A DNA stretch of 35,872 bases. Origin: an uncultured Hyphomicrobiales bacterium. GTDB lineage: Bacteria > Pseudomonadota > Alphaproteobacteria > Rhizobiales > Aestuariivirgaceae. The translations under genes were made by a program, and so were the position numbers. The notes beneath the pieces were generated by a model. The model was not told where the DNA came from. It worked only from the letters and a program-made list of their open reading frames with translations, and searched no databases. Below are positions 3,246 to 33,126 of this stretch, piece after piece (positions within the stretch are counted from its first letter, which is position 1; every line of letters starts with the position of its first letter). The stretch covers positions 1 through 35,872 of the forward strand of contig CAJBCQ010000086.1 of the NCBI GenBank assembly GCA_903951595.1, in the 5' to 3' direction.

Positions 3246-4154
3246 ATGATGTACAGCACACCCGCAACACCTTTGAGCGAACGCGATTTCCACGACCGCA
3301 TCTATCGCGGTGAAATCCTGCGTTTTGATGCCATTCCAGCCATGCTGGAACTGGCGCAATTCGCGCAAAAATTCCTCGCCCAAGCCTTCCACCCGCACCC
3401 GCCGCCGCAAATCCACCGGCATCTCTCGCATGAGGAGCAGATCCCGCGATTCGCACAATTGCAGAAGCAATTCTGGAAGCAGGACGAAGTGAGCCACCTC
3501 TGGCAAGAAATTTTCCGCACCATCGGCCTCGACCCACAAGGCCTCACCCGCGATCATTTGCATTTGCGCTTCCAGCCGCATCAGGACAAAAACACCGAAT
3601 ATTCCCGCGCCCGCACCACCTCCACACTGGCCTTCCACCGCGACACTTGGGGTTCCAATCTTTATGCACAGGTGAATTGGTGGGCACCCATATTCCCCAT
3701 TTCCCAAGGCCGCACGGTGGCCATGTATCCAGCCCTATGGAACCGCGCGGTTGCCAACACTTCCGCGCAATATGATCTGGCAAAAATCCTCGAACGCTCG
3801 CGCGCACAAGGCCGCAATGCGGTGAGTGCGGATGAGGCCATTCCGCATCTGACCGAAACCCTCGACCCCGAACTTGCCATTCCCGTTGTCATCGAGCCTG
3901 GAAGCCTCATCGCCTTTTCCGGCGCCCATGCCCATGCCGGGGTTCCCAATGCAACGGGCCTTACCCGCCTGTCGCTCGAAACCCGCACACTCAGCGTGGA
4001 TGATTTCCGGCAAAACCGGGGTGCCCCCAATATGGACGGCCACGCCCCATGGGCGGCTCCGGGCTGGTTCCGGCACATGGTCACAGGCGAAAAATTGAGC
4101 GATTTACTGGGCATGGAGCATATTATCCCCTACCCATTTCCCACCCGCCCCTGA
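3246..4154 (+). CDS. Predicted Fe(II)/2-oxoglutarate (phytanoyl-CoA dioxygenase-like) oxygenase
   Basis: HxD-type motif FHRDTW plus distal HAHAGVPNATGLTRLSLETRTL (His...Arg) spaced as in 2OG oxygenases; 302 aa. Confidence 0.6.
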   Translation: MMYSTPATPLSERDFHDRIYRGEILRFDAIPAMLELAQFAQKFLAQAFHPHPPPQIHRHLSHEEQIPRFAQLQKQFWKQDEVSHLWQEIFRTIGLDPQGLTRDHLHLRFQPHQDKNTEYSRARTTSTLAFHRDTWGSNLYAQVNWWAPIFPISQGRTVAMYPALWNRAVANTSAQYDLAKILERSRAQGRNAVSADEAIPHLTETLDPELAIPVVIEPGSLIAFSGAHAHAGVPNATGLTRLSLETRTLSVDDFRQNRGAPNMDGHAPWAAPGWFRHMVTGEKLSDLLGMEHIIPYPFPTRP

Positions 4155-4226: not shown

Positions 4227-5939
4227 ATGATCAACGCCTTCCGGATATTCTTCGGTGCCGAACGCGGTAAGTCAGTCATCCTGCTCATCTGCCTTGTGCT
4301 GGCCAGCTTTGCCGAAGCCTTGAGCTTTGGTGCGCTGGTGCCGGCGCTGGGGCTGGTTGGCGGCCAAACGGGGGCTGGCAGCAACCGCATCAATGATGCC
4401 CTTACCACTGCTTTCGGCTGGGTTGGGCTTACCCCGACCATCGGCACGCTGATGCTGCTGATCACAGGCTCACTCATCATAAAATCCGTGCTGATGTTCT
4501 TCTCGCTCGGCTATGCGTCCTATGCCAAAACCCGCATCACCACCCAGCTGCGCCGCGAGTTGATCACAACATTGTTGGATGCCCGCTGGAGCTATTTCAC
4601 AGGCCAGCATTCCGGCCGCATCGCCAATGCCATCAGCGTGGATACCGCCAATGCCGGTGAAGCCTTCCTGAATGCCGCCCGCTTTTTCGCCTTCGCGCTG
4701 CAATCGATTGCCTATATCGGCTTGGCCTTCCTCATCTCACCAATCGTCACCGCCTTGGCATTGGCCGCTGGCCTTCTGGTGGTTGTGGGCCTGAACGTGT
4801 TCCTGACTGTTTCGCAAAAAGCCGGCAGCAAACAGGTGCGCCGCACGTCGGATCTTGTGACCTTCCTTGTCGATACGATCAGCAATCTGAAGCCGCTCAA
4901 AACCATGAGCCGCCAAAAAAGCTTTGAGCACTTGCTCACCGCCAAGGTGAAGCAACTACGCCGGTCCATTCTCACCCGCGAGCTTTCCCGTCAGGGCCTC
5001 ATCAACACCCAGGAAATCCTCACCGCCTGTGTCTTTGGTGCAGGCCTTTATGTCGCCGCTGTTTATTGGAAAGTGCCACTAGCCGAACTCGTCGTGGTCG
5101 GCATTCTCGTCTTTCGCATCGTCTCAGCCCTCACGCGCACGCAAAACAACCTGCAAAGCGCCTTGGAACTGGAAACCGCCTATTGGCGCACCCGCGAACT
5201 GATCAAGGATGCCAAAGCCGCCGCTGAACCTGATACTGGCAAAAAAGCCGCCACGCTGAAAAAGGGCTGCCGCTTCGAGCATGTCAATTTTGCCCATGAC
5301 AAAACGCCGATCCTGAAGGATGTGACCTTCGATATCCCCGCAGGTGGCATTACTGTTCTGCAAGGCCCATCGGGTGCAGGCAAAACCACCATCATCGACA
5401 TGCTCACCGGCCTCAACCGTCCCGCTTCCGGCCGCGTGCTGGTGGATGGCGTGCCACTTTCAGAAATCTCCAATCGCAAATGGCGCAGCCTCATCGGCTA
5501 TGTGCCGCAGGAACTGAACCTGCTGCACGGCACCATTTTCGAAAATATCAGCTTGGGCGACCCGCGCGTGACAGAGGCCGATGCTTGGGAAGCCTTACGC
5601 TTGGCAGGTGCCGACTCGTTCGCGCGCGACCTTCCCCACGGGCTTTCAACCGATGTGGGCGAAATGGGTGCCAAGCTCTCCGGCGGCCAGCGTCAGCGCA
5701 TCTCCTTGGCCCGCGCCCTTGCCGTCAAGCCACAGCTTCTGGTTTTCGATGAAGTGACCAGCGCCCTCGACCCAGAAACCGAAGCCGAAATCGTTGCGCG
5801 CATCGCAAAGCTCAAAGGCAAATACACCATCATCGCCATCACCCACCGCCCGGCATGGACGACCATTGCCACCAAGGCCTATAAGGTGAAGGCAGGCGTT
5901 GTGACGCCCATGGCCAAGCCACGCAAGACGCGCGCGTGA
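4227..5939 (+). CDS. ABC exporter, fused permease/ATPase (MsbA-like lipid/multidrug type)
   Basis: N-terminal TM domain; Walker A GPSGAGKTT, signature LSGGQRQRISLARAL, Walker B LLVFDEVTSALD. Confidence 0.92.
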   Translation: MINAFRIFFGAERGKSVILLICLVLASFAEALSFGALVPALGLVGGQTGAGSNRINDALTTAFGWVGLTPTIGTLMLLITGSLIIKSVLMFFSLGYASYAKTRITTQLRRELITTLLDARWSYFTGQHSGRIANAISVDTANAGEAFLNAARFFAFALQSIAYIGLAFLISPIVTALALAAGLLVVVGLNVFLTVSQKAGSKQVRRTSDLVTFLVDTISNLKPLKTMSRQKSFEHLLTAKVKQLRRSILTRELSRQGLINTQEILTACVFGAGLYVAAVYWKVPLAELVVVGILVFRIVSALTRTQNNLQSALELETAYWRTRELIKDAKAAAEPDTGKKAATLKKGCRFEHVNFAHDKTPILKDVTFDIPAGGITVLQGPSGAGKTTIIDMLTGLNRPASGRVLVDGVPLSEISNRKWRSLIGYVPQELNLLHGTIFENISLGDPRVTEADAWEALRLAGADSFARDLPHGLSTDVGEMGAKLSGGQRQRISLARALAVKPQLLVFDEVTSALDPETEAEIVARIAKLKGKYTIIAITHRPAWTTIATKAYKVKAGVVTPMAKPRKTRA

Positions 5940-5950
5940 TGGGGAATTAA

Positions 5951-7084
5951 ATGCCAGACATCACCATAAGGCCCGTGAAAACGCCGCGCGACCGCAAAGC
6001 CTTTCTCGACCTGCCCTTCCGCCTTTACAAGAACGACCCCAACTGGGTGCCACCGCTTTATCTGGAGCGCGAGGATCACCTCACGCGCAATCCTTACTTC
6101 CAGCATGCCGAAGCCCAGCTTTTTCTGGCCGAGCGCGCTGGTGAAGTCATAGGCCGCATCTCCGCCCAAATCGACCAGCTGCATCTGCAACGCTATAACG
6201 ACGCCACCGGCCAATTCGGCTTCCTGGAAGCGCAAGATGATCCGGCCATTTTCGAAGCCCTGTTCACCGCTGCCGAAAGCTGGCTGAAGGCGCGCGGCAT
6301 GCAGCGCATGGAAGGGCCTTTCAGTTTTTCCATCAATGAGGAAACAGGCCTTCTGATTGATGGTTTCGACAAGCCGCCTTACATCATGATGGGCCATGCC
6401 AAGCCTTCCTATGACGCCCGCGTGCAGGCGCAAGGCTTGGTGAAGGCCAAGGATGTGATCGCTTATGAATATGATCTGAACATCCCCATGCCCCGCGCCA
6501 TGACGCGCATGATCGAAAAGAATAAGGCCTCGGGCAAATTGAAGCTCCGCCCCATGTCAAAAAAGCACCTCGCGCGCGATCTCGACATCATCATCAGCAT
6601 CTTCAACGATGCCTGGTCAGAAAATTGGAACTTCGTGCCGATGACGCAAGCTGAAGTGAAAGCACTGGGCCAGGTGCTGAAACTGCTCGTCACCGAAGGC
6701 CATATCGCCATTGCTGAATATGAAGGCGAGCCTGCGGCCATGATTGTCACACTGCCAGACATCAATGGCTGGATTCACGATCTGGGCGGAAAGCTATTAC
6801 CCTTCAACTGGGCCAAGTTTCTCTGGCGAGTGATGTTCACACCCGAAAAAGGCTTCCGCGTGCCGCTAATGGGAGTTCGCAAAGCCCACCGCTCCACCGC
6901 CGCTGGTGCCATGCTGGCCTTTGCTGTTATTGATGCCGTGCATGAATATCACCGCAAGCGCGGCACGTTCATGAGCGAGCTTTCGTGGATTCTGGAAGAC
7001 AACATGCCCATGCGCCGCATCATTGAGGCCTTGGGCGGGGTTCCTTACAAAACCTATCGCATTTATGAAAAGGCCATCGCGTGA
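5951..7084 (+). CDS. bcerS: GNAT-fold protein, candidate bacterial ceramide synthase (often annotated as N-acetyltransferase / dATP pyrophosphohydrolase)
   Basis: 377 aa; RDRKAFLDLPFRLYKNDPNWVPPLYLERE N-terminus and MEGPFSFSINEETGLLIDGFDKPPYIMMGHAKPSY centre resemble this family; located in a sphingolipid cluster as in Caulobacter. Confidence 0.7.
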   Translation: MPDITIRPVKTPRDRKAFLDLPFRLYKNDPNWVPPLYLEREDHLTRNPYFQHAEAQLFLAERAGEVIGRISAQIDQLHLQRYNDATGQFGFLEAQDDPAIFEALFTAAESWLKARGMQRMEGPFSFSINEETGLLIDGFDKPPYIMMGHAKPSYDARVQAQGLVKAKDVIAYEYDLNIPMPRAMTRMIEKNKASGKLKLRPMSKKHLARDLDIIISIFNDAWSENWNFVPMTQAEVKALGQVLKLLVTEGHIAIAEYEGEPAAMIVTLPDINGWIHDLGGKLLPFNWAKFLWRVMFTPEKGFRVPLMGVRKAHRSTAAGAMLAFAVIDAVHEYHRKRGTFMSELSWILEDNMPMRRIIEALGGVPYKTYRIYEKAIA

Positions 7085-7851
7085 AGTGGGATGCGCTCAT
7101 CATGGCGGCAGGCCGCGGGCCGGATGACCCGATGGCGAAAGCCTATGGCGTTTCGCATAAGTGCCTTTTAGAAGTAGGCGGCATCCCGATGCTGGCGCGT
7201 GTGGTGGATGTGCTGTCGCGCCACAAATCCATCCGCCGCATTTTCATCTCCATCGAGGATGAAACGCTAATCAAAAAGGCACTCGGCCGCGATGCCGAAC
7301 ATGTGGAATTTATGCGCTCCGGCGACAGTGCTGCCGCTTCCGCTTTGCTGGCATTGGGATCGGGAAAACTCACCCATCCCATACTTCTCACCACCGCCGA
7401 CCACGCGCTTTTGACGCCAGAAATGGTGAGCAATTTTCTCGGTGCGTCGGAGGCTGTGAAAGCAGATTTGACGGTAGGCTTGGCGCGCGCGGAAACAATC
7501 CTCAAAGCCTACCCCAACGCCAAACGCACCTTCTTGAAATTCGGTCGCGACCGCGTATCGGGCTGCAATCTCTACGGCCTGAAAAACGCGAACACCGCCC
7601 GCGTGCTCGAATTCTGGCGCACCGTGGAGCAAGATCGCAAATCCCCCCTGAAACTCATGCGCGCCTTTGGGCCGCGCCTGCTATTGGCCTGGGCAACAGG
7701 CCTCACGAGCCTCAACGGCGCATTCCGTCTGGCATCAAAGCGGCTCGGTGTGACGGCTGTGCCCGTCCTGATGCGGCAGGCCAATGCGGCTGTGGATGTT
7801 GACAAGCCAGCGGACAAGGAACTGGTGGAACGCATTCTGGCGGTGAACTAA
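7081..7851 (+). CDS. NTP transferase (MobA/GlmU-N-like nucleotidyltransferase)
   Basis: ALIMAAGRGPDDPMAKAYGVSHKCLLEVGGIPMLARVVDVL nucleotidyltransferase motif; TTADHALLTPEM; overlaps the upstream gene by 4 nt. Confidence 0.85.
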   Translation: MKWDALIMAAGRGPDDPMAKAYGVSHKCLLEVGGIPMLARVVDVLSRHKSIRRIFISIEDETLIKKALGRDAEHVEFMRSGDSAAASALLALGSGKLTHPILLTTADHALLTPEMVSNFLGASEAVKADLTVGLARAETILKAYPNAKRTFLKFGRDRVSGCNLYGLKNANTARVLEFWRTVEQDRKSPLKLMRAFGPRLLLAWATGLTSLNGAFRLASKRLGVTAVPVLMRQANAAVDVDKPADKELVERILAVN

Positions 7852-7854
7852 GTC

Positions 7855-7919
7855 CGTCATCCCGGACGCCGCAAAGCGGCGAGCCGGGACAGGGCTTTCT
7901 AAACCTCGCCCGCAATCTC
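7855..7919. repeat. 65-bp direct repeat copy 1 (REP-like palindrome plus 3' end of the GIY-YIG gene)
   Basis: cgtcatcccggacgccgcaaagcggcgagccgggacagggctttctaaacctcgcccgcaatctc; 63/65 identical by eye to 8262..8326; internal hairpin TCCCGG...GCCGC-aaa-GCGGC...CCGGGA. Confidence 0.9.
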
Positions 7920-8195
7920 GGAAAACAAATCCCGCCAACGGGGATTCGACTTCTCAATCAAGGCAAACTTCCACTCCCGCAACCAGCGCTTAATCTGCTT
8001 TTCGCGCAAGATTGCAGAAGGCATTTCAGCATGCGGTTCATACCAGACCAGCAGCTTGATATCGCGATCAACCGTATACCCGGCCTTCAAATCCAACCGA
8101 TGCTCACTAACCCGCAGCACCAGATCGCTGGTGACGCCTACATACATTGAGCCACGGTAGCGATTTGCGAGAATGTAAACGCAAGGTAGCTTCAT
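7899..8195 (-). CDS. Small GIY-YIG nuclease family protein
   Basis: CVYILANRYRGSMYVGVTSDLVLRVSEHR...KLLVWYEPH...AILREKQIKRWLREWKFALIEKSNPRWRDLF, typical single-domain GIY-YIG; 98 aa from ATG at 8195. Confidence 0.92.
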   Translation of the reverse strand: MKLPCVYILANRYRGSMYVGVTSDLVLRVSEHRLDLKAGYTVDRDIKLLVWYEPHAEMPSAILREKQIKRWLREWKFALIEKSNPRWRDLFSEIAGEV

Positions 8196-8219
8196 GCTGG
8201 AAGTTTGAAAGAAGCCCTG

Positions 8220-8238
8220 TCCCGGGTCAAGCCCGGGA
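8220..8238. repeat. REP-like hairpin TCCCGGG-tcaag-CCCGGGA
   Basis: Read directly; wider unit aagccctgtcccgggtcaagcccgggatgacg is in inverted orientation relative to the unit at 7856..7898. Confidence 0.85.
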
Positions 8239-8261
8239 TGACGTAAAAATTGATCATTGAT

Positions 8262-8326
8262 CGTCATCCCGGACGCCGCGAAGCGGTGAGCCGGGACAGG
8301 GCTTTCTAAACCTCGCCCGCAATCTC
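8262..8326. repeat. 65-bp direct repeat copy 2 (includes a remnant of the GIY-YIG 3' end)
   Basis: cgtcatcccggacgccgcgaagcggtgagccgggacagggctttctaaacctcgcccgcaatctc; two substitutions relative to copy 1. Confidence 0.9.
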
Positions 8327-8389
8327 AGACACTTGAAAGCAGCCCGGATGACGCATGAATTGGTGGCAACGCAAAGCGATGAGGCTTCG

Positions 8390-9118
8390 TCACCACCCCG
8401 CCACCATCCGCCGCGCCTGTTGCAAGTCCGCCGGGAAATCCACTTCGCACCATTCATAGGCACCGGCTTCGCACACGGCCACTTCCGTATGCTTGGCAAG
8501 TTCACCCACCGCATAAGGGAACCATTGGCGCAGGCCGATGGGATCGCGCATGCAAGTTTCCAGCACCGCGCGGTAACGCGCCGAGCCTTCGCCGCGGAAA
8601 TAATAAAAGCCGATCGCTTCTGCATCCACCGCTTCCACCGGCAAGGTCTTGCCGATTTCGGTCAGCCTGCCGCCGTCGAGCATCACCTTCATATCGTCGG
8701 CATCAAACTTAGGCTTGCGGTTGATGGCCACTGTCAAAGGTGCAGGCGGAGAGATCAGAAGCCCGGCCACCAAATCGGCCCGGAACACGTTATCGCCATT
8801 CACCTGCACGAAATCGCCCGTCATCTCATGCCGCGCCATCCAGCAGCTCGCCAGATTGTCGGCAACCGAATAGAACGGATTGAAAACCGTGCGGATGGTG
8901 ATTTTCAAATCCGCCGCAATGGCGGCCAGTTCTTCTTCCATCCGCGCGGCACCATAGCCCGTGATGACCACAAATTCGCGCGCCCCGCAGGTCACAAAAG
9001 CCTCAATCTGGCGGCGCACCAAAGGCTTGCCGCCAATATCGAGAAGGGCTTTCGGCACATCGGCGGTGAGCGGCAGCAAACGCTTGCCTTGGCCCGCGCC
9101 CAAAATGATCACTTTCAC
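8390..9118 (-). CDS. Sugar-phosphate nucleotidyltransferase-like protein (RmlA/GlmU N-terminal type)
   Basis: MKVIILGAGQGKRLLPLTADVPKALLDIGGKPLVRRQIEAF; VQVNGDNVFRADLV; 242 aa. Confidence 0.88.
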   Translation of the reverse strand: MKVIILGAGQGKRLLPLTADVPKALLDIGGKPLVRRQIEAFVTCGAREFVVITGYGAARMEEELAAIAADLKITIRTVFNPFYSVADNLASCWMARHEMTGDFVQVNGDNVFRADLVAGLLISPPAPLTVAINRKPKFDADDMKVMLDGGRLTEIGKTLPVEAVDAEAIGFYYFRGEGSARYRAVLETCMRDPIGLRQWFPYAVGELAKHTEVAVCEAGAYEWCEVDFPADLQQARRMVAGW

Positions 9119-9201
9119 GAGACTTGAACCTTGCTGGGGCTATGCTTACAAACCGTTTCAATTGCACCCCACCCGGGCGAAGTCAACGTTGCGGCAACCT
9201 A

Positions 9202-10098
9202 ATGTTCACAATCGCCCATTTGTCTGATGTCCATCTGGCTCCCCTGCCCAGCCCCACAATGGCTGAGCTGATGGGAAAGCGCCTGTCAGGCTACCTCTCA
9301 TGGCACCTGAACCGCCATAAAATCCACAAAACACACGTTTTGGCCCGGATTACGGCCGATATCGCTGCCCACAAGCCCGATCACATCGCCTTCACGGGCG
9401 ATCTGGTGAATCTGGCGCTACCGGCGGAATTCAAGGCGGGGGCTAAATGGCTGAAAAAGCTGGGTAACCCGCGCGATGTCACGATGGTGCCGGGCAACCA
9501 TGATTCCTATACGCCGGAAGGCTTCGCTGAAGGTCTCAAGCTTCTGAACCCCTGGATGCAGGGCGATGCCGCCACCGCGCAACCGCAATTCCCCTTTGCC
9601 CGCTACCGGCGCAATATCGCGATCATCGGGCTTTGCACGGGGCTTCCCACCCCGGTTTTTAACGCTTCCGGCACCTTGGGCCGCGAACAGCTGGAACGCC
9701 TCGCCATCCTGCTCCAGCAAACCCGCACGCGCGGCTTTGCCCGGGTTGTCATGCTGCACCACCCGCCCGCCCCCGGCCTTGCCATCCCCCGCAAGGCGTT
9801 GACGGATGCAGGCGATCTGGTGGCGGTTCTGGCCCAACATGGCGCGGAACTGGTGCTTTACGGCCATAATCACCTGCACCAATCTCATGTGATTGAAAGC
9901 GCGCTTGGCCCGGTGCCCTGTTTCGGCATCCCGTCAGCTTCCGCTTTGCCCTATCCCGGACACCCACCCGCCGCCTGGACGCGCTATGCCATCAACCGCA
10001 CGGAAGGAAACTGGCGCATCACCGCCCTGACGCGCAGCTTGAACCCCGCGCGCGACAGGATGGAGACCAGCCGCGAATTCACCCTTGGCGAGACCTGA
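9202..10098 (+). CDS. Calcineurin-like metallophosphoesterase
   Basis: LSDVHL, FTGDLVN, VPGNHD, LHHPPAP, YGHNHLHQ metallophosphoesterase motifs; ATG at 9202. Confidence 0.92.
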   Translation: MFTIAHLSDVHLAPLPSPTMAELMGKRLSGYLSWHLNRHKIHKTHVLARITADIAAHKPDHIAFTGDLVNLALPAEFKAGAKWLKKLGNPRDVTMVPGNHDSYTPEGFAEGLKLLNPWMQGDAATAQPQFPFARYRRNIAIIGLCTGLPTPVFNASGTLGREQLERLAILLQQTRTRGFARVVMLHHPPAPGLAIPRKALTDAGDLVAVLAQHGAELVLYGHNHLHQSHVIESALGPVPCFGIPSASALPYPGHPPAAWTRYAINRTEGNWRITALTRSLNPARDRMETSREFTLGET

Positions 10099-10101
10099 AC
10101 C

Positions 10102-10545
10102 ATGCCCAATGCCACCGCCCGCAAATTCGGCCATCCAGCCACATTGATCGCCGAATATGCCCATTGGCTGGTGCAAATAAGGCCTGCACAGGCAACGCTT
10201 GGCGCGCTCGTGCTGATCTGCAAGGATGAGGCCGACAGCTTCTCGCGCATCAGCCAAGGGGCCTTTGCCGAGCTTGGCCCCGTCACCGCCGATATCGAAA
10301 CCGCCCTTGCCCGCTTCAGCCCTTACGAGCGACTAAATTGGCTCATGCTGATGATGGTGGACCGGGATGTTCATTTTCATGTAATTCCGCGCTATTCTGT
10401 AACCCAACGCTTCGCGGATACGCAGTTCCCGGACCCCGCCTGGCCCGGACCCCCAGATCTGGGCCATGCCGTGAAGCCCGACCCGGAATTGCTGCAAAAA
10501 CTTGTTACCGCAATGAAGGCCAACTGGCCCCAAAGCGCCCACTGA
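10102..10545 (+). CDS. HIT family hydrolase-like protein
   Basis: DVHFHVIPRY HIT-like motif; 147 aa. Confidence 0.75.
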   Translation: MPNATARKFGHPATLIAEYAHWLVQIRPAQATLGALVLICKDEADSFSRISQGAFAELGPVTADIETALARFSPYERLNWLMLMMVDRDVHFHVIPRYSVTQRFADTQFPDPAWPGPPDLGHAVKPDPELLQKLVTAMKANWPQSAH

Positions 10546-10564
10546 AAGCATATGCTGACGCCTC

Positions 10565-11785
10565 ATGGCCATCGCTGATCGCTATATCCTGCGCCAGGTC
10601 GCAAAACCCATCCTGACGGCCATCGCCATCGGCATGATGGTGCTATTGGCCGAACGCATGGTGCGCCTGCTCGATGTCACACTGGGCAAGCGCAACAGCT
10701 TTGCGGTGGTGTTCGAGCTGCTGGCCTATCTTGCCCCGCATTATCTGGGCCTTGCCGTGCCGCTGGCCTTGTTCATCGGCCTGCTGCTCGGTTTCAACAA
10801 AATTTCCAAAGACAGCGAACTCGACGCCTTTCTTGCTGCCGGCATCGGCCTGCACCGATTGGCGCGTTCGGTGATGCTTCTTGCAGCCATCCTATCGGTG
10901 TTCTCCATCGCCATCTTCGGCTGGCTGCAACCGCATACGCGCTATGCCTATCGGGCAGTAATGTTCACCGTTTCTAATATCGAAGTATTCTATCTGGCCG
11001 AAGAAGGCGTGTTCATGCAATCGGGCACGCGCACCTTCATTATGGACAAGCTGCAACGCGGCGAAGGCGCGTTCGAGCGCATTTTCATTTTCGACTACAA
11101 AGGCAAAGCCGGTGCCGAAACCACCACCGCCGCCAGTGGCCGCCTGATTGAGGCCCCCGGCCAGACGCGGCCCGTACTGCGGCTGGAAAATGGCCAGCGC
11201 CTGAAAATCGACGAATGGCCGCTCAGCGACAACGCCCTCTTGCCGCTGCCACAGGCTGGTTCTTTCGAAATGGCCGACACGCCCCTTGGCACCATCACCA
11301 ACAAGATTTTCCGCCCGCGCGGCAATGACGAGCGCGAATTGACCCTAGTGGAACTCTATCAGCGCGTGATGAGCCCGCCACCTGACTCCATTCCCCGAAC
11401 CATCTGGGAAAACCGCTCTGAGCTGCATAAACGCGCGGTGATGATCCTCACGACACTTATCCTGCCTTTCCTGGCCCTGCCCTTTGCCATCACCCGCCGC
11501 CGCAGCCAACGCGCCTATCGCATTGGCGTCGCCCTCATCATCCTCATCGCCTATCACGAAGTGATTGAGCGCGGTGCCGTTTTGGTGCGCGTGCAGGAAG
11601 CCTCACCCTATCTCACCCTGTGGCTGCCCTTTGCAGCCCTTGTCGCCTTTGCCTTTTGGCGCTTCTGGGTTGTCTGTTTCCGGCTTCCCTCCGACAAGCT
11701 GGACCAAATGATCACCAATGCGCTCACGCCCTTTGCCAATCTGCGCCGCGCCATTGCCGCGCGTCTTGGAGGCAAGCCCGCATGA
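10565..11785 (+). CDS. LptF-like permease (YjgP/YjgQ family)
   Basis: DRYILRQVAKPILTAIAIGMMVLLAERMVRLLD N-terminus, C-terminal TM bundle with LLILPFLALPFAI-like region; 406 aa; followed by an overlapping LptG-like gene. Confidence 0.85.
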   Translation: MAIADRYILRQVAKPILTAIAIGMMVLLAERMVRLLDVTLGKRNSFAVVFELLAYLAPHYLGLAVPLALFIGLLLGFNKISKDSELDAFLAAGIGLHRLARSVMLLAAILSVFSIAIFGWLQPHTRYAYRAVMFTVSNIEVFYLAEEGVFMQSGTRTFIMDKLQRGEGAFERIFIFDYKGKAGAETTTAASGRLIEAPGQTRPVLRLENGQRLKIDEWPLSDNALLPLPQAGSFEMADTPLGTITNKIFRPRGNDERELTLVELYQRVMSPPPDSIPRTIWENRSELHKRAVMILTTLILPFLALPFAITRRRSQRAYRIGVALIILIAYHEVIERGAVLVRVQEASPYLTLWLPFAALVAFAFWRFWVVCFRLPSDKLDQMITNALTPFANLRRAIAARLGGKPA

Positions 11786-12855
11786 GCATTGTTGGCTGGA
11801 TGATCACCCGCATGGTGGTGACGCGCTTCCTCATGATCCTGTTCGGGCTGTCCCTGTTCATCGTGACGCTGGATGCCATGACCTATGCCAATGACATTCT
11901 GGCGCTCAAAAATAATGATGTGAACGCCATCCTCATCTATGCCGCCTTGCGATTGCCTTCCATCATGTCCAGCTTCCTTCCCTTCTGCGTGCTGCTCGGC
12001 ACGCTTTTGGCGCTGATGGAGCTGAGTTACCGCAATGAGATGACAGCCATTTGGGGGGCCGGGCAATCGCCGCTTTCCATCATGATACTACTCTTTCCCA
12101 TCGGGCTTTTCCTCGGCGGAGTTAATTTTCTCATCAATGATCAGGCCATCCCACGAGCCGCCCCCATACTGCATGAATGGGGCATTGGCGATTACGGCCA
12201 GAAGAAGCTGAAACTGGGCGAGAATGACCCCATCTGGATGCGCTCTGGCAGCGACATCTTGCGCGCGGCAAGCTCGAACGCCCCCGCCACCAAGCTCGAA
12301 GATGTGGTGATCTTCCGGCGCGACGCAGATGGCCTTTTGCTCGAACAGATCCATGCCGAAACCGCAACGCTGGTGGGGGATCGCTGGGAGCTTACCCATG
12401 CCGTTGTCTACACCCGCGCCCAAATGGCCCCCGCGCATGTGGACCGCATGGTCTATTCCGGCACCATCCGGCCCGCTGCCAAAGGCGCACGTTCCGGTGA
12501 CCCGGAGGAAATGTCCGTCAAGGAGCTTTCCTATTTCATCGACAATGCCGGGTTCGGCATCAAGCCCACCTATCTTTATGAAACCTGGCGCTTCAAGCGG
12601 CTGAGCCTGTTCATATCCAGCTTCCTGATGATCGCGCTCTGCGTGCCGCTGGCCAGCCGCTTCCGGCGCGGTGGTGGTCTTGGCATGTTCTTCATCCTGG
12701 GCGTGGGGCTGGGCTGGGGTTATTTCATTGTGGAAGGCATTGCCCAAACCATGGGCGAATTGGGCTTTGTGCCCCCCTGGATGTCCATCTGGGTGCCCGT
12801 CGCGGCATTGGCTGCACTCACGACATCGCTGACCTTGAAGGCAGACACCCTCTAG
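11782..12855 (+). CDS. LptG-like permease (YjgP/YjgQ family)
   Basis: ATG at 11782 overlaps the stop of the upstream gene; ITRMVVTRFLMILFGLSLFIVTLDAM N-terminus, LPSIMSSFLPFCVLLGTLLALMELSYRNEMTAIWGAG, PWMSIWVPVAALAAL C-terminus. Confidence 0.85.
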   Translation: MSIVGWMITRMVVTRFLMILFGLSLFIVTLDAMTYANDILALKNNDVNAILIYAALRLPSIMSSFLPFCVLLGTLLALMELSYRNEMTAIWGAGQSPLSIMILLFPIGLFLGGVNFLINDQAIPRAAPILHEWGIGDYGQKKLKLGENDPIWMRSGSDILRAASSNAPATKLEDVVIFRRDADGLLLEQIHAETATLVGDRWELTHAVVYTRAQMAPAHVDRMVYSGTIRPAAKGARSGDPEEMSVKELSYFIDNAGFGIKPTYLYETWRFKRLSLFISSFLMIALCVPLASRFRRGGGLGMFFILGVGLGWGYFIVEGIAQTMGELGFVPPWMSIWVPVAALAALTTSLTLKADTL

Positions 12856-12927
12856 CCCCCCGCCCGTTGACGCCGCCGCGCGCACAGGCCAAAACAGCCC
12901 GACACCTGAATCTGTAAGGATTGCCAC

Positions 12928-14124
12928 TTGTCCGCGACGTCCACCAAGCCACGCGCAAAGCCACGCAAGAAGGTCCAAACCGCCCCCGCCGCTGTCCTGT
13001 GCCTGACCGGTGCCGACGCCGGGGCCATTTTTGGCCGCAGCACAAGCGAACGGCTTACCCGCCAATTCGCCCGCGCAGGCCTTGCGGGCAAAGTCACCCC
13101 GGCACAAGCCCAAACCCATGAAGGCCCGGTTCTGCTCGTGCGCGCGGATGCGGTGATCGACGAGCCGCTGATCGGCTTGCTTCTCAAATCCCCCGGCCTT
13201 GTGCTTTTATCGGACGACACAGGTGCCATATTGGCCATCCACGCCAACGGCAAAGATGCCAAGGCATTGCTGCCGGTTCTGGCAGGCAAGAAAGCCCTGC
13301 CAACCCAATGGAAAGCCGCGGCCCGCAAGCCTGCTGAACTGGATGCTGTGTTCTGGGAAAAACTCCGCAAACGCGAAGTGCCCTATGCGCGCTTGGCTGA
13401 TGGCCAGAACAACAAGGCCCTCGAATGGCGCGTGTTCATGGGCACCTATAAGGGTGCCACCGACATCGTAACCAAGCGCCTGTGGCCTTACCCTGCCTTC
13501 CTCGTCACTCGCTTTATTGCACCCTTGGGGGTAACGCCCAATCAGGTAACCACCATCGGCGCCATCGCCACGATCGCGGCGTTCTTCCTGTTCATGAACG
13601 GCCATTTTGCTTGGGGCCTGTTTGCCGGTTGGCTGATGACTTTCCTCGACACGGTAGACGGCAAGCTCGCCCGCACCACCCTCACCTCATCAAAATGGGG
13701 CGATGTGTTCGACCACGGCATTGATCTCGTGCATCCACCCTTTTGGTATTATGCTTGGGGTCTGGGCTTGGCCGCCGCAGGCCACGACTGGCCACCTGCC
13801 TTCTTCTGGATGATCTTCGCTGCCATTCTCGGCGGCTATGTGTTGCAGCGTTTGATGGAGGGCATTTCCATCAAGGGGCTGGGCATGGAAATCCATATCT
13901 GGCGACGCATCGACACTTACTTCCGCGAGATCACCGCGCGGCGCAATCCCAACCTCGTCATCCTGACGGTGAGCTTGGGCTTTGGCCGCCCAGATTTGGG
14001 GCTGATCGCCGTGGCGATTTGGACACTCGCCTGCCTTGTGCTGCATGCGCTGCAACTGGGCCAAGCCTTTGCGGCCAAATCCAAATCCGGCCCCCTGACA
14101 AGCTGGATGAGCCAGCGGGCATGA
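12928..14124 (+). CDS. CDP-alcohol phosphatidyltransferase with extra N-terminal (degenerate nucleotidyltransferase-like?) domain
   Basis: Signature DTVDGKLARTTLTSSKWGDVFDHGID fits DxxDGxxAR(x8)GxxxDxxxD; about 190 aa precede the TM domain; TTG start likely. Confidence 0.85.
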   Translation: MSATSTKPRAKPRKKVQTAPAAVLCLTGADAGAIFGRSTSERLTRQFARAGLAGKVTPAQAQTHEGPVLLVRADAVIDEPLIGLLLKSPGLVLLSDDTGAILAIHANGKDAKALLPVLAGKKALPTQWKAAARKPAELDAVFWEKLRKREVPYARLADGQNNKALEWRVFMGTYKGATDIVTKRLWPYPAFLVTRFIAPLGVTPNQVTTIGAIATIAAFFLFMNGHFAWGLFAGWLMTFLDTVDGKLARTTLTSSKWGDVFDHGIDLVHPPFWYYAWGLGLAAAGHDWPPAFFWMIFAAILGGYVLQRLMEGISIKGLGMEIHIWRRIDTYFREITARRNPNLVILTVSLGFGRPDLGLIAVAIWTLACLVLHALQLGQAFAAKSKSGPLTSWMSQRA

Positions 14125-15080
14125 AAACAGGCCTCCTCGTCAACCCGCGCGCCGGCAAGCTTTCCGGCAAGGGCCTGAAGCTCATAGAGGCTTTGGGTAC
14201 AAAAAGCGGTGTCTTTCAAACCGTGCTGAATGATTTCAGCGAGCTGGAACCCTCCTTGCGCCAATTCGCAGCCCAAGGCGTTACAACCTTGGCCATAAGC
14301 TCTGGCGATGGCACCATTCAGGCCATTCAAACCCTGCTCGCCGAAACGAACATTTTTGCCCAATCCCCGCGCCTCATGCTGCTGCCGCATGGCACCACCA
14401 ACATGACGGCAGCCGACTTAGGTGTCACCACCCGCAACATCCAAAAGCTCGCCGCCATTCTGCAAAGCACCCCCGCCCTGGCCGGAGCCGAGACCCGCAT
14501 CCGCCCCACCCTTCGCATTGCCAACCCCGCCGATGGCCGCCCGCGCCACGGCATGTTCACCGGCACCGGTGCCATTTGGCGGGCCGTGCAATTCTGCCAA
14601 CAGGCCGTGCATGGCGCAGGGCTGAAGGGCGATGCCGCCACTTTCGCAACCCTGGCCCTCGCCATTGGCGGGCTGTTCTTCAATGGCAACACACCAGAGG
14701 CCGAACGCATTGGCCGCGTGTGGAATTTCAAGGCCCGTGCTGAAGGCAAGCCCATCGGCTCTGGCGATCAGCTTTTATTCATGGCCACCACGCTGGAAAA
14801 ACTCGTGCTGGGTTCCAAACCCTTCTGGGGCGGCAAAACCGCTTCCATCCGCGCAACTGTTTTGCCCTTCCCACTACCGCAAGTCTGGCGCTGGATCATC
14901 CCCACCCTTTATGGCAACGAAACCCGCGCCGTGATGCCGGGTGCGGTAAGCCTGTGTGCGGAGGATTTCGAGATCGACACGCGGATCAGCTGGATCGTGG
15001 ATGGTGAGTTCTACGATGCCCCCGAAAATGAACCGCTACGCATCACACGCGGGGCGGATTTCACTTATGTGATCGTGTGA
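14121..15080 (+). CDS. cpgB: Diacylglycerol/sphingosine (LCB)-type lipid kinase; candidate ceramide kinase
   Basis: LLVNPRAGKLSGKG, ISSGDGTIQAI, LLPHGTTNMTAADLG motifs of DAGK catalytic domains; overlaps the upstream CDS by 4 nt. Confidence 0.8.
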   Translation: MKTGLLVNPRAGKLSGKGLKLIEALGTKSGVFQTVLNDFSELEPSLRQFAAQGVTTLAISSGDGTIQAIQTLLAETNIFAQSPRLMLLPHGTTNMTAADLGVTTRNIQKLAAILQSTPALAGAETRIRPTLRIANPADGRPRHGMFTGTGAIWRAVQFCQQAVHGAGLKGDAATFATLALAIGGLFFNGNTPEAERIGRVWNFKARAEGKPIGSGDQLLFMATTLEKLVLGSKPFWGGKTASIRATVLPFPLPQVWRWIIPTLYGNETRAVMPGAVSLCAEDFEIDTRISWIVDGEFYDAPENEPLRITRGADFTYVIV

Positions 15081-15889
15081 TGCGCGCCGATGTGCAGGCG
15101 CTGGCTGATGCCTGCCGCACACGGCACGATCCGGGAGTCGTGGCCATCCTCGCCTATGGCTCTTGCCTGCGCGACAAAACGAGCGAAGGCCTGATCGATC
15201 TTTATGTGCTGACGCGGGATTTTCAAGCCGTGAGCCGCAATCCCTTGAGCCGCTTCTTCTGCCGCCTTGTGCCACCCAATGTCTATTATGTGGAAGCAGA
15301 CGGTGCGCGCGGCAAATATGCCGTGCTGCCATTGTCGCGCTTTGCACAAATGGCACGCGCGCAAAACCCCTATATCTGGGCCCGCTTCGGCCAGCCCTGC
15401 GCGGTGGTCTATGCCACGGATCAAAAACCAGTCGAAGAAGCATTGGCGCAATGCGCGGCAACCATGTGGGCTGAAGCTGCCGCATTGAGCCAAGCAGATG
15501 ATGATGCGCTGCAAGCCCTCACCCGCCTTTTCGCCGCCACTTATGCAACCGAACTGCGCCCAGAAAGCAGCGCGCGCGCCAATGTGATCGTGAATAGCGA
15601 CGCTGCGTTTTATGCAGCCGCCGCCGCAAAGCATTTGGGCAAAAACTGGCGCTCGGTGAACACCACACCAGCCAACTGGCGCACCCGCCGCATTATCGGA
15701 AAGGCGTTGTCAGTGGCACGACTGGTAAAAGCAGGCTTCACCTTCCAGGGTGGCGCTGACTACATGGCATGGAAAATTGAGCGCCATTCAGGCGTGAAGA
15801 TAGAGATCACCGCTTGGCAAAGAAAGCACCCCGTGCTGGGCGCGCTGTCACTCTTGCCGCGATTGCTGAAAAAGGGCGCTGTTCGATAA
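15080..15889 (+). CDS. Nucleotidyltransferase resembling Tam41-type phosphatidate cytidylyltransferase
   Basis: ILAYGSCLRDKTSEGLIDLYVLT (YGS...D.D-like motif), NVYYVEADGARGKYAVLPLSRF, WARFGQPCAVVY similar in order to Tam41 motifs; overlaps the upstream gene by 1 nt. Confidence 0.65.
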   Translation: MRADVQALADACRTRHDPGVVAILAYGSCLRDKTSEGLIDLYVLTRDFQAVSRNPLSRFFCRLVPPNVYYVEADGARGKYAVLPLSRFAQMARAQNPYIWARFGQPCAVVYATDQKPVEEALAQCAATMWAEAAALSQADDDALQALTRLFAATYATELRPESSARANVIVNSDAAFYAAAAAKHLGKNWRSVNTTPANWRTRRIIGKALSVARLVKAGFTFQGGADYMAWKIERHSGVKIEITAWQRKHPVLGALSLLPRLLKKGAVR

Positions 15890-15952
15890 GAAAGCGAAAA
15901 ACGAAAAAGACCCTCGGGCGTGACCCCAGAGTAACGTGGGTTTTTCATCGTC

Positions 15953-15981
15953 ATCCTCGGGCTTGACCCGAGGATCCTTTT
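15953..15981. terminator. Hairpin ATCCTCGGG-cttga-CCCGAGGAT followed by ccTTTTc, between convergent operons
   Basis: 9-bp perfect arms at 15953-15961 and 15967-15975; belongs to the same GGGCTTGACCC-core palindrome family as 8220..8238. Confidence 0.6.
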
Positions 15982-15995
15982 CGACTTCGCTATTC

Positions 15996-17198
15996 TTACT
16001 CCGCCGCCTGCTGCTGCTTCACAACAACCTGACCAAACAGCTCAATAATCCGATCAATATCCGCCGGCGTATGCGCCGCTGAAACAGAACACCGCAGCAG
16101 GCAGAGCTTGGAAGGCGTTCCCGGCGGCAGTGCGATATTCACATAAACACCCGCATTCAAAAGCTCATTCCACATGCCGATGGTGGTCGGCTCATCTTTG
16201 CATTTCACCGCAATCACCGGGCTCACCACATCGCAGCCCATCGTCAGGCCCAAGGCCTTGAAGCCTGCATGAAGGCGCGCGGAATTTTCCCAAAGCCGCG
16301 TGCGCCGTTCCGGCTCGCGCGCCAGCACCTTCACCGCCTGCAAAGCAGTTGCGGCGGAAACGGGTGAAGGGGAAGCGGTGAACATATAGGGCCGCGAGGC
16401 ATAGCGGATCGTATTGAACAGCGGATGATTGCCCGCGCCAAACCCGCCAATGGAACCTACACTTTTCGAGAAAGTGCCAACGATGAAATCAACTTCATCA
16501 TCAAGCCCCGTCTCATCGCCAAGCCCACGCCCATTCGGCCCCAGAACACCGAATGAATGGGCGTCATCGACGAGAAGCTGGAAGCCGTGCTTCTTCTTCA
16601 CCTCAACAAAATCCGCCAAGGGTGCGCGGTCGCCCAGCATCGAATAAATGCCTTCGAGAACGACAAGCCGCCCGCCCTCTTCGCCCTCAACCCGCGACAG
16701 ACGCTTATCGAGATCAGCAGCATCATTATGCCGGAAGCGCACGAGCTTGGCACCCGACAGCGTGCAACCATCATAGATGGAAGAATGGCTATCTGCATCG
16801 AGGAAGATCGTATCCTTCGGCCCAGCCAAGCCCGCCATCATGCCCAAATTTGCCTGATAACCCGTGGTGAACACAATGCAATGCTTGCGGCCCAAGAACT
16901 TCGCGATCTCCGCTTCCAGCTCCCCATGCATGGCATAAGAACCATTGGCAATGCGAGAGCCCGTGGTGCCCGTGCCAAATTCCGCCAGCGCCTTTTTGCC
17001 CGCTTCAATCACCGAAGGCTCAAATGTGATGCCCATGTAATTATTGGTGCCCGCCAGAATGGTTTCACGCCCATTGATGATGGAGCGCGTGGGCGAGAGA
17101 ACTTTTTCATTCACAAGGCCCACCGCATTCACACCCATCGCCATCATGCGGGCATGGCGTTCGGCAATGTGCTTGTGCTTATCGAAAAGGTCCATCAT
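15996..17198 (-). CDS. spt: Serine palmitoyltransferase (alpha-oxoamine synthase family)
   Basis: TNNYMGITFEPSVIEAGKKALAEFGTGTTGSRIANGSYAMHGELE, DDAHSFGVLGPNGRG, GTFSKSVGSIGGFGAG (PLP-lysine region); adjacent ACP and reductase. Confidence 0.92.
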   Translation of the reverse strand: MMDLFDKHKHIAERHARMMAMGVNAVGLVNEKVLSPTRSIINGRETILAGTNNYMGITFEPSVIEAGKKALAEFGTGTTGSRIANGSYAMHGELEAEIAKFLGRKHCIVFTTGYQANLGMMAGLAGPKDTIFLDADSHSSIYDGCTLSGAKLVRFRHNDAADLDKRLSRVEGEEGGRLVVLEGIYSMLGDRAPLADFVEVKKKHGFQLLVDDAHSFGVLGPNGRGLGDETGLDDEVDFIVGTFSKSVGSIGGFGAGNHPLFNTIRYASRPYMFTASPSPVSAATALQAVKVLAREPERRTRLWENSARLHAGFKALGLTMGCDVVSPVIAVKCKDEPTTIGMWNELLNAGVYVNIALPPGTPSKLCLLRCSVSAAHTPADIDRIIELFGQVVVKQQQAAE

Positions 17199-17449
17199 CA
17201 GCTCCTATTCACGCGCGCTTCCACCACACTGACAAGATCATCCAGCGTGCGGGTTTCCGAAAGCACGTTGAGTGCGATTTCGATGTTGAAATGATCCTCC
17301 ACCTCCATCACGAAATCCATCACCGTCACGGAGTCGATATTCAGGTCGGTGGAAATGTCGGTGGTCAGCGAAAGGGCCACGCCCGCGCTGTTGAACGGCT
17401 GCAAAAGCTCGCAAAGGGCCGTGAAAATCTCAGCACGGGTGGCAGTCAT
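17198..17449 (-). CDS. Acyl carrier protein (sphingolipid-associated)
   Basis: 83 aa; phosphopantetheine motif DLNIDSVTVMDFVMEVEDHFNIEI. Confidence 0.9.
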   Translation of the reverse strand: MTATRAEIFTALCELLQPFNSAGVALSLTTDISTDLNIDSVTVMDFVMEVEDHFNIEIALNVLSETRTLDDLVSVVEARVNRS

Positions 17450-18438
17450 GGCAGTTTCGTCTCCTGATCCGAATTCGGCCTAGATGTAGCCGCACCGCGC
17501 CGTGGCGGCAACAAGCCTTGATCCCGGTAGGCGGCAAGCGTTTGTGCAAAGCCGCGCGCAAAGCCAAATTCAGGCGAAAAACCCGGCAATGCCGGCCCCT
17601 GCACCACCCAATCGGGATGATAAAGCTCACCTAGCTTGCTCTGGCTCAGCATGAAAGGCACGCCCCGAAGACTGGCAATCCAGTCCGCCAGCAAAGCCGG
17701 CAACGCCAAGGCGGCACGCGGCACAAAGATCGGCTGCACACAGCGCCCCTCAGCGGCTCCGGCAATGGCGCATAGCTCATCCCAGCCATAGCCGCCAGAT
17801 TTGCCATCATCCATTTCATGGATCGTGCCTGAAGGCGCATCCGCCAAAGCCGCATCCACCAAAGCCCGCGCCAGATCGGCCACATGCAACAAAGAGATAC
17901 GCCCCTGCCCACGGCCCGGCACCAAGGCATAGCGGCGCGTTAATTGCACAAATAGCGGCAGGGTTGCTTTGTCGCCAGGGCCATAAACGGCGGGCGGACG
18001 GATCATCACCCAATTCATGCCACCCGCAGCGCGCGCCACCAAATGCTCACCCGCTCGCTTGCTCGCCGCATAATGCGACAAATCCGGCTCACGCGCGGCC
18101 AGCGATGAAACATGCACAAAGCGGCGCACCTTGGCACCAACAGCCGCCACCGCAACATTGGCAGCCCCTTGCCCATTCACCGCAAAAAACCCATCACGGT
18201 TCACCGCCATAATGGCACCCGCAATATGAATAACCGCATCCGCCCCATCGCACAGGCTCGCAAGGGCGGATTTATCAGCCAAATCTCCAGCCACAATTTC
18301 CGTATTGAGATGAAGCTTCAATCGGCCCGGATCCCGCGCCAAAACGCGCGCACGAAGCCCGCGTGCGGCCAGTTCGGCCATAACGGCGCGGCCCACAAAA
18401 CCACCGGGGCCAGTAACTGCAATCAAGGGAGCGCTCAC
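17446..18438 (-). CDS. cerR: NAD-dependent epimerase/dehydratase-type SDR; candidate ceramide reductase
   Basis: VTGPGGFVGRAV Rossmann motif, HVSSLAA, YAASKRAGE active-site motif; operonic between ACP and acyl ligase. Confidence 0.8.
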   Translation of the reverse strand: MSAPLIAVTGPGGFVGRAVMAELAARGLRARVLARDPGRLKLHLNTEIVAGDLADKSALASLCDGADAVIHIAGAIMAVNRDGFFAVNGQGAANVAVAAVGAKVRRFVHVSSLAAREPDLSHYAASKRAGEHLVARAAGGMNWVMIRPPAVYGPGDKATLPLFVQLTRRYALVPGRGQGRISLLHVADLARALVDAALADAPSGTIHEMDDGKSGGYGWDELCAIAGAAEGRCVQPIFVPRAALALPALLADWIASLRGVPFMLSQSKLGELYHPDWVVQGPALPGFSPEFGFARGFAQTLAAYRDQGLLPPRRGAATSRPNSDQETKLP

Positions 18439-20273
18439 TGCGCGGCAACAGCCCGCAGCGGCATGGCAACCGCATGCACCGGCGCATTGGCGGCGATTTC
18501 GGCAATTTCGCCCGAAACAAAGCGCGCCTTGGCCGCCGCACGCGACAACTTGCCCGACGAAGTAAAGGGCAGGCTCTTGGGTGCCACCAGCACCACATCA
18601 CATTCCACCCCAGCCGAATGATGCACACTGGCTGAAACCTTGCGGCGCAAATCTTCCATTTCGGCAGGCGCTGTCAGGCGGCATTGCACCAGCACCGTTA
18701 CCTGATCTTCACCATCATCATTCTCAATACCGAAGGCCGCAACATCACCTGAACGCAAGGGTTCAATATGTTCGGCCGCCCATTCAATATCCTGCGGCCA
18801 GATATTGCGGCCATTATGCAAGATCAAATCCTTGGCGCGGCCCGTAATAACGATTTGGCCGTCGATGAGATAGCCCATGTCGCCCGTATCCATGAAACCG
18901 CCATCGCGCATCACGGCATCGGTTGCTTCAGCGGCTTCGTAATAGCCGTTCATCAGGCTCGGACCCTTGACGAGGATATGACCAATTTCGCGGTCGCCCA
19001 GCGTGCGACCATCATCGTCGGTCACTTTCATCTCATGGCCTTCGAGCGGGCGTCCGCACACCACGAATGTGCGCGTGCGTTCCGGCTTCAAGCCCGGTGC
19101 TGCCGGAACGGCACGGCGCGACAGCTTGTAATGCGCGCGGTCCACCACATCCACAGCCGCAGGCGCGGTCAAATCTGAGAAGGTAATGGCGAGCGTGGAT
19201 TCCGCCATGCCATAGCTGGGCAAAAAGGCCGTGGGGTTGAACTTCGCCGGCTTCATATGCGTGGCAAAAGCCTCCAACACATCTGCCCGCACCATGTCGC
19301 CACCAATGCCCGCAACCCGCAAAGCCGAAAGATCAATCGACGGCGCATCACCATTCAGGCGACGACCCGCCAGATCATAGCCAAAGGAAGGCGAGAAGGT
19401 GATGGTGGAACGATTATCGCTCATCAGCTTCAGCCACAAAGCAGGACGCCGCGCGAAGGAAGGTGTGGACAGATAATCCACCGTCACCTGCGCCAACATG
19501 GGGCTGAGGCAAAAGCCGACCAGCCCCATATCGTGATAAAGCGGCAGCCACGAGAAGGCGCGGTCGGCAGGCGAAATCGCCATGCCCTGCCGCAAAATAC
19601 CTTCCGCATTCGCCATGATGGCCTTTTGCGAAATCAGAACGCCTTTGGGGCTGGATGTGGAACCGGAAGAATATTGCACATAAGCCACGTCATCCGCCGT
19701 GAACGGTTCCAGCACCACATGCGAAGCATCCACCGATGCCAAGGCCGAATGGGTGAACACTTTCACATTGCCAAGCGCCTTGGCAGCCGCCTCCACATGG
19801 CCCAGCAGATCATCACCCGCCACAATGGCCGAAGCGCGCGCGGCTTTCAGCATGCCGGTAATGCGCTCAATGTAAGATTCCTTACCACCAATATACATGG
19901 TGTAAGGCACCGGGCACGGCACAAGCCCGGCATATTGGCAGCCGAAAAACACGGCCATAAAATCAGCGCCTGTTTCAGCAATCACGCCCACGCGCTCACC
20001 GCGTTTCAGGCCTGATGCAATGAGCCGCTGGCCGGTGGCAATTGCCAGCTCACGCAATTCCGAATAGGCCAGCACGCGCTCCAAAGCCCCGCGCGAGGAA
20101 TAGAAATTGAATCCAGTTTCACCGCGCGCGGCATAATCAAGGCCTTGGCTGATGGTGGCAAAGCCGCCGACTTTCTGGGGATGGTTGCGGCTGGCGCGGG
20201 CGGTACGCGAAATGACCTGCTCGGGCTCCACCCGATCCACAACTTCGCCCGCCGTTTTCAATTCATGACGCAA
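18435..20273 (-). CDS. Fatty-acyl-AMP ligase / acyl-ACP synthetase
   Basis: YVQYSSGSTSSPKGVLISQKAIMAN AMP-binding motif, DTGDMGYLIDGQIVITGRAKDLILHNGRNIWPQDIE; 612 aa; first gene of the spt operon. Confidence 0.92.
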   Translation of the reverse strand: MRHELKTAGEVVDRVEPEQVISRTARASRNHPQKVGGFATISQGLDYAARGETGFNFYSSRGALERVLAYSELRELAIATGQRLIASGLKRGERVGVIAETGADFMAVFFGCQYAGLVPCPVPYTMYIGGKESYIERITGMLKAARASAIVAGDDLLGHVEAAAKALGNVKVFTHSALASVDASHVVLEPFTADDVAYVQYSSGSTSSPKGVLISQKAIMANAEGILRQGMAISPADRAFSWLPLYHDMGLVGFCLSPMLAQVTVDYLSTPSFARRPALWLKLMSDNRSTITFSPSFGYDLAGRRLNGDAPSIDLSALRVAGIGGDMVRADVLEAFATHMKPAKFNPTAFLPSYGMAESTLAITFSDLTAPAAVDVVDRAHYKLSRRAVPAAPGLKPERTRTFVVCGRPLEGHEMKVTDDDGRTLGDREIGHILVKGPSLMNGYYEAAEATDAVMRDGGFMDTGDMGYLIDGQIVITGRAKDLILHNGRNIWPQDIEWAAEHIEPLRSGDVAAFGIENDDGEDQVTVLVQCRLTAPAEMEDLRRKVSASVHHSAGVECDVVLVAPKSLPFTSSGKLSRAAAKARFVSGEIAEIAANAPVHAVAMPLRAVAAQ

Positions 20274-20918: not shown

Positions 20919-21017
20919 GGGAATTCCTTTACCATAATCAGCGACACACTGTGCCAAATCCGGCCAGATTCACCCGCTTTGCCGCCCTTGAACCCGATCC
21001 TTGCAGATCGGATGCCA

Positions 21018-30154: not shown

Positions 30155-30230
30155 TTGTCGTCCTCCTGACAGGTTTTCTTTTGCCGCATCAGGCTGCGGC
30201 GACCATGTTGGCAAGGTTCTCTCACCCGTC

Positions 30231-31235: not shown

Positions 31236-31253
31236 GGTTCTGATCTTCCAGAA

Positions 31254-32931: not shown

Positions 32932-33126
32932 CGATGACGCTTCAATCCCGGCAAGACAGGCTTTTCGCCCCTTTCTTTGCGCCGGGCGGCATGAACAAGC
33001 GCGGTTCATTCCTCCCTGCCTGAGTCATCGCAAAAGCAGCAAATAGTTGCAAGTCAAATGTTCCCTTGCCTCAAATTGTATCTTGAATGTAGCATTATGC
33101 CTCAAATAGAAGTGGGTGAAACTACC

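Follow-up and report, generated by a model that had tools for sequence, protein, structure and literature searches.

A Caulobacter-type ceramide phosphoglycerate locus holding the only LptFG pair of an Aestuariivirgaceae genome without LpxC and LpxB

The closest described system is the CC_1152-CC_1168 cluster of Caulobacter crescentus, which comprises five ceramide genes, six genes for ceramide phosphoglycerate (CPG) and CPG2, an additional LptC, LptF, and LptG, one flippase, and the genes CC_1157 and CC_1167, regarded as unrelated (Olea-Ozuna et al., PMC11324152). The same work reports counterparts of LptF2/G2 in S. wittichii and Z. mobilis, and describes the route of bacterial sphingolipids to the outer membrane as unknown. 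Here we analyzed a window of 35,872 nucleotides, which is one whole contig (C86) of the draft genome G000 (2.72 Mb, 264 contigs, 100% complete) of an uncultured Hyphomicrobiales bacterium from the family Aestuariivirgaceae (f1). The sphingolipid locus at 4227-20273 is a known kind of cluster, a near-complete Caulobacter-type set of predicted genes for acidic sphingolipid synthesis and export. We estimate at roughly three in four the probability that it makes CPG lipids exported to the outer membrane in place of lipopolysaccharide (LPS). What is new is this LPS-less setting, with the Lpt bridge probably devoted to sphingolipid, which we did not find reported for Aestuariivirgaceae; our literature search, outside which most subscription journals lay, gave no relevant account of LPS-less members of this family or of an LptFG-sphingolipid connection beyond PMC11324152.

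Neither LpxC nor LpxB was detected in any of the 52 Aestuariivirgaceae genomes sampled, which include G000, several genera, and near-closed genomes, whereas the same LpxC search was positive in 210 of 241 Alphaproteobacteria sampled class-wide. The Lpt bridge is retained: LptD was found in 51 of the 52 family genomes, and G000 holds an intact LptD-SurA-PdxA-RsmA group on a contig other than the window and an intact LptC-LptA-LptB group outside the locus, with LptB passing the LPS-export equivalog (374, cut-off 240) and the single LptC on another contig. By whole-genome search, G000 has a single LptF and a single LptG, encoded in the locus on the plus strand (10565-11785 and 11782-12855; PF03739 with E-values of 2e-62 and 4e-59, respectively). 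Across the family, two LptF/G matches were observed in 42 of 52 genomes, a third in 9, and one match in a single draft. Since the sole LptFG pair lies in the sphingolipid locus of a genome without LpxC and LpxB, it probably carries the sphingolipid, and we infer that the Lpt bridge of G000 exports this lipid. Dedicated transport had been proposed in an earlier note on this DNA, and the absence of any other LptFG pair from this LPS-less genome supports it more strongly than the window by itself could.

Two types of LptFG can be distinguished. In a tree of 114 LptF and LptG sequences (a quick build with some long branches, whose inner order is not relied on), LPS-type LptF and LPS-type LptG each formed their own clade (14 rows each; Shimodaira-Hasegawa-like approximate likelihood ratio support of 99 and 100, respectively). 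Neither the window pair nor any cerS-linked protein falls within these clades, and LPS-less genomes without CerS retain the LPS type. The window LptF and LptG also score below the NCBIfam equivalog cut-offs for their LPS counterparts (209.6 against 230 and 194.3 against 240, respectively). The LPS-bearing relatives share the arrangement of a divergent pepA followed by lptF-lptG-lptD-surA-pdxA-rsmA. A pepA-lptD gap of 153-599 bp without lptFG was observed in 7 Aestuariivirgaceae and 10 other LPS-less genomes; in five further LPS-less genomes pepA does not adjoin lptD, and the G000 contig starts 122 bp before lptD, leaving the junction outside. A different rearrangement occurs in two genomes with both lipids (L169 in G228 and L173 in G168), where LPS-type lptFG is followed directly by surA-pdxA-rsmA and lptD is relocated elsewhere.

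The class-wide sample was scored for both LpxC and CerS, yielding 23 genomes with CerS only, 8 with neither protein, 15 with both, and 195 with LpxC only. Thus CerS is present in 23 of the 31 LpxC-less genomes versus 15 of the 210 LpxC-bearing ones (odds ratio 37, Fisher p 9e-16, kinship ignored). The number of LptF/G matches differs between these classes: (i) all 16 tested genomes with LpxC only have two, (ii) at least four are found in 13 of the 15 genomes with both proteins, (iii) among the genomes with CerS only, G000 excluded, 19 of 22 have two, one has three, and two have none, and (iv) the genomes with neither protein have no match in five cases and two in three. LptD is single in all 15 dual-lipid genomes (split in one draft), and therefore both entry pairs apparently deliver to a single outer-membrane translocon. 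In 19 of the 20 genomes that have CerS and LptFG and no LpxC, the distance between the pair and cerS is at most about 7 kb, with several gene orders represented. Within the family, a CerS homologue was found in 51 of 52 genomes, mostly beside LptFG, compared with 29 of 52 for CpgC. In nine CpgC-less members examined, LptG, plus LptF where co-located, lies between cerS and spt; these loci keep the phosphoesterase and sometimes cpgB, and cpgA, cpgC, and cpgD are gone. Because LptFG stays by cerS in their absence, the pair follows ceramide and not the phosphoglycerate headgroup. Taken together, it seems fairly probable that the Aestuariivirgaceae and, repeatedly, other Alphaproteobacteria lost LPS and, at the ancestral pepA-lptFG-lptD site, the LptFG dedicated to it, and that their Lpt bridge now serves sphingolipid, fed by a distinct and ancient type of LptFG that accompanies ceramide synthase irrespective of the headgroup.

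The biosynthetic assignment could be right and LptFG could still move another cargo, such as a polysaccharide-lipid or another phospholipid, standing beside cerS by operon history only. A UDP-galactopyranose mutase gene nearby (23610-24719), which suggests another surface glycan, and the retention of LptFG in CpgC-less relatives agree with such a cargo. We consider it unlikely, given the closeness of LptFG to cerS through several gene orders, the separation of the locus LptFG from the LPS-type clades, and the presence of both pairs in genomes with both lipids.

Gene functions were assigned using Pfam, NCBIfam equivalog cut-offs, relatives of solved structure in PDB, and AlphaFold fold matching; Caulobacter counterparts were assigned from published descriptions and positions, not by direct alignment. 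The minus-strand spt operon encodes the serine palmitoyltransferase Spt (15996-17198), the dedicated acyl carrier protein AcpR (17198-17449; PF00550, E 5.7e-9), the extended SDR reductase CerR (17446-18438; PF01370, E 2.3e-26), and the fatty acyl-AMP ligase/acyl-ACP synthetase AasR (18435-20273; NF006624, 747.5 bits, cut-off 600), in the order of their counterparts CC_1162-CC_1165. Spt scores 581.8 bits against NF047599, the equivalog model for serine palmitoyltransferase (cut-off 500). Among proteins of solved structure it is closest to bacterial SPTs (440 bits), with lower scores for KBL (216), BioF (no more than 183), and ALAS (170). These results rule out the KBL/BioF/HemA identity, which the earlier note had named as refuting its reading. 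In its PPGTP motif, Spt has Leu where the Sphingomonas enzyme has Arg (ARPPATP); this position is usually taken by Leu, Val, or Ile in Aestuariivirgaceae and by Arg in Sphingomonas.

Heading the operon is a conserved single-transmembrane protein (20391-20957, minus strand; no Pfam match) that adjoins aasR in many relatives. Together with the product of 21018-21776 on the same strand, it makes two membrane-anchored proteins without a family match that stand beside aasR in many relatives; neither gives an LptC match. The GNAT-fold ceramide synthase CerS (5951-7084, plus strand; CC_1154 counterpart), with a weak match to PF00583, is encoded by a different operon in this region, as in the Caulobacter-type cluster. 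The adjacent MsbA-like ABC half-transporter (4227-5939, plus strand; PF00005, E 3.5e-31; PF00664, E 5.8e-19) is a candidate sphingolipid flippase corresponding to CC_1166; it scores below the NCBIfam MsbA equivalog cut-off, and its gene adjoins cerS in many relatives. Directly upstream, at 3246-4154 (plus strand), lies a weakly PhyH-like gene (E 0.005) not found in related loci.

The headgroup genes begin with a MobA/CofC-like nucleotidyltransferase of the CC_1153 type (7081-7851, plus strand; PF12804, E 5.4e-12) in a conserved position. The predicted CTP:phosphoglycerate cytidylyltransferase CpgD (8390-9118; CC_1152/CCNA_01210 counterpart; PF00483, E 3.4e-12) is encoded on the minus strand between plus-strand genes, an odd orientation kept in most relatives having CpgD. 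Its best solved relative is LicC (E 6.5e-13). Pattern-matched to the CTP- and glycerate-binding residues known from the 2026 structures of Caulobacter CpgD (PMC13228409), it keeps those corresponding to R16, G12, N90, N110, G111, and W201, and departs at T93 (Ser) and S170 (Ala). It is followed by a calcineurin-like metallophosphoesterase (9124-10098, probable start 9202, plus strand; CC_1158 counterpart; PF00149, E 1e-12), kept even in loci without cpgB and cpgC, and by a HIT-like protein (10102-10545, plus strand; likely the CC_1157 counterpart) with an HFHVIPRY motif and an orthologue matching PF01230 below threshold. Downstream of lptFG, the plus strand encodes the CDP-alcohol phosphotransferase CpgA (12928-14124; CC_1159 counterpart; PF01066, E 4.4e-11), with the complete motif D-x2-DG-x2-AR-x8-G-x3-D-x3-D, the ceramide kinase CpgB (14121-15080; CC_1160 counterpart; PF00781, E 1.4e-11), and CpgC (15077-15889; CC_1161 counterpart), which is convergent with spt. 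For CpgC, Pfam gave no match, and NCBIfam and PDB sequence profiles gave nothing useful. Its AlphaFold model (mean predicted local distance difference test score 90.9, from 30 sequences) has Tam41 with CTP-Mg as the best solved fold (7ecd; E 1.1e-6, TM-score 0.60), and also matches S. pombe Tam41 (6ig4). This modeled fold fits the role suggested for CC_1161, activation of ceramide-1-phosphate (PMC11324152).

The gene content thus bears out the earlier note, which had described a tight minus-strand spt operon, a convergent plus-strand cassette from LptF to a Tam41-like protein, and an upstream GNAT-fold protein, MsbA-like exporter, and two nucleotidyltransferases: all are present with the expected matches, the Tam41-like protein by fold and not by Pfam, the second nucleotidyltransferase on the minus strand. 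Neighboring genes of the spt operon, of cpgABC, and of lptFG share 1-4 bases. Its related ceramide pathway with a headgroup branch agrees with the Caulobacter-type gene content, the Spt equivalog, the CpgD residues, and the CpgC fold. The conserved metallophosphoesterase and HIT-like genes had been omitted from it. The gene order recurs in dozens of named genomes and is therefore not due to chance.

The whole headgroup set was found in 21 of the 47 scorable loci from named genomes. CpgA is present in 31 of these loci, 29 of which also have the HIT-like gene, and both the HIT-like gene and CpgD are missing from the 16 loci without CpgA (p 1e-10, kinship ignored). This comparative dissection suggests two modules, one for the first phosphoglycerate (CpgB, CpgC, the CC_1153 type, and the phosphoesterase), and one for the second (CpgD, CpgA, and the HIT-like protein). 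The co-occurrence argues against treating CC_1157 as unrelated. The placement of the CC_1153 type in the first module sits oddly with the Caulobacter CC_1153 mutant, which still makes CPG but not CPG2. In one genome (G037), two cpgB copies were observed, one with the CC_1153-type gene and cpgC and the other in a cerS-lptFG-spt locus without cpgC (contigs C13 and C69; L069 and L156). CpgC homologues also occur outside Proteobacteria, in Nitrospirales contigs (L129, L136-L138, and L141), the longer of which encode homologues of CerS, CpgD, CpgA, and CpgB too.

By this gene content, the product is probably CPG and, with CpgD and CpgA, CPG2. In the proposed pathway, AasR would load a fatty acid onto AcpR, Spt would condense the AcpR-bound acyl group with serine, and CerS and CerR would complete the (dihydro)ceramide. 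CpgB would then phosphorylate it, and CpgC, as a Tam41-type CTP transferase, probably forms CDP-ceramide, to which glycerate or phosphoglycerate would be joined, perhaps with trimming of the product by the phosphoesterase. CDP-glycerate would come from CpgD, and CpgA may attach the second phosphoglycerate. Finally, the MsbA-like protein would flip the lipid, and the ceramide-linked LptFG, driven by the single LptB, would load it onto the ordinary LptC-LptA-LptD bridge.

The headgroup could instead be other than CPG or CPG2, with enzymes acting on substrates unlike the Caulobacter ones. Published chemistry is limited to CpgB, CpgD, and partly Spt, and does not extend to CC_1153, CpgA, and CpgC (PMC12275187), and many family members are altogether without CpgC, CpgA, or CpgD. 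Such a headgroup is nevertheless improbable here, as the full gene set and order are present and the CpgD contacts are kept at all but two positions. That LPS is made and the lpx genes were missed through divergence or the 264-contig draft assembly is nearly refuted by the uniform LpxC and LpxB absence, which extends to near-closed genomes, and by the loss of LPS-type LptFG as well.

Several points weigh against the export of CPG lipids in place of LPS. Two genomes of another family (G147 and G304, f96) have CerS, and LpxC, LptFG, LptD, and LptC are all absent from them; thus, a sphingolipid does not always need Lpt. Three genomes without LpxC (G064, G083, and G084) have 4-5 LptFG matches, and the third LptF-like gene in nine family genomes points the same way. 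The absence of LPS genes is that of LpxC and LpxB; LpxA, LpxD, LpxK, and WaaA were not searched for. On the biosynthetic side, Caulobacter makes CPG without CpgA (PMC11324152), the scheme names no transferase for the step from CDP-ceramide to CPG, and the likeness to Caulobacter comes from published description and position and not from protein alignment. Separately, LPS loss was not retained as an explanation for all LptFG counts, the exceptions being G123 and G155 in addition to the five genomes just named.

Other genes of the window are less closely connected to the locus. The product of 34144-35130 (plus strand) belongs to the fatty-acid hydroxylase family (PF04116, E 3.3e-19) and may be a hydroxylase of sphingolipids or fatty acids; in Caulobacter, hydroxylation of the acyl chain is important for the sphingolipids (PMC11324152). 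The UDP-galactopyranose mutase (PF03275, plus strand) is encoded in an LPS-less genome, and so galactofuranose must go on another surface glycan. A phosphatidylcholine-synthase-like CDP-alcohol phosphotransferase (26768-27502, minus strand) has NF045887 as its best NCBIfam match (224 bits, below the cut-off of 300). A sugar ABC transporter operon (29222-32852, minus strand) and a divergent LacI-type regulator (33058-34128, plus strand) are ordinary.

A lineage whose sole LptFG pair lies in a sphingolipid locus and which is without LpxC and LpxB removes LPS as a confounding factor, making the export question testable via one gene pair. The general rule offered is that the number of LptFG pairs tracks the types of surface lipid while LptD stays single. 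The lineage also provides a genome-based way to recognize LPS-less Gram-negatives, which bears on their response to polymyxin and LpxC inhibitors.

Compared with the Caulobacter cluster (CCNA_01210-01226 region; PMC11324152, PMC12275187), the locus combines in one region the same spt, acpR, cerR, aasR, and cerS, the four cpg genes, the CC_1153 and CC_1158 types, LptF/LptG, and an MsbA-like flippase. Unlike G000, with its single LptFG pair and no LpxC or LpxB, Caulobacter keeps LPS and another LptFG pair; the CC_1168-type LptC2 of Caulobacter was not found in the window, and the single LptC of G000 is encoded elsewhere. CpgC shares with the Tam41 CDP-diacylglycerol synthase its fold and the GS...D nucleotidyltransferase motif, but has about 14% identity to it, no Pfam Tam41 match, and ceramide-1-phosphate as the presumed substrate. 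The LPS-less Sphingomonas have an outer-membrane sphingolipid in place of LPS, as proposed for G000; their genes, in contrast, are scattered, and the Sphingomonas loci examined have cpgB and cpgC without cpgA and cpgD nearby. Finally, the canonical LPS export system LptB2FG-C-A-D uses the same protein families, and LptB, LptA, LptC, and LptD of G000 are ordinary, whereas its LptFG pair falls below the NCBIfam cut-offs, lies outside the LPS clades, and is not beside lptD.

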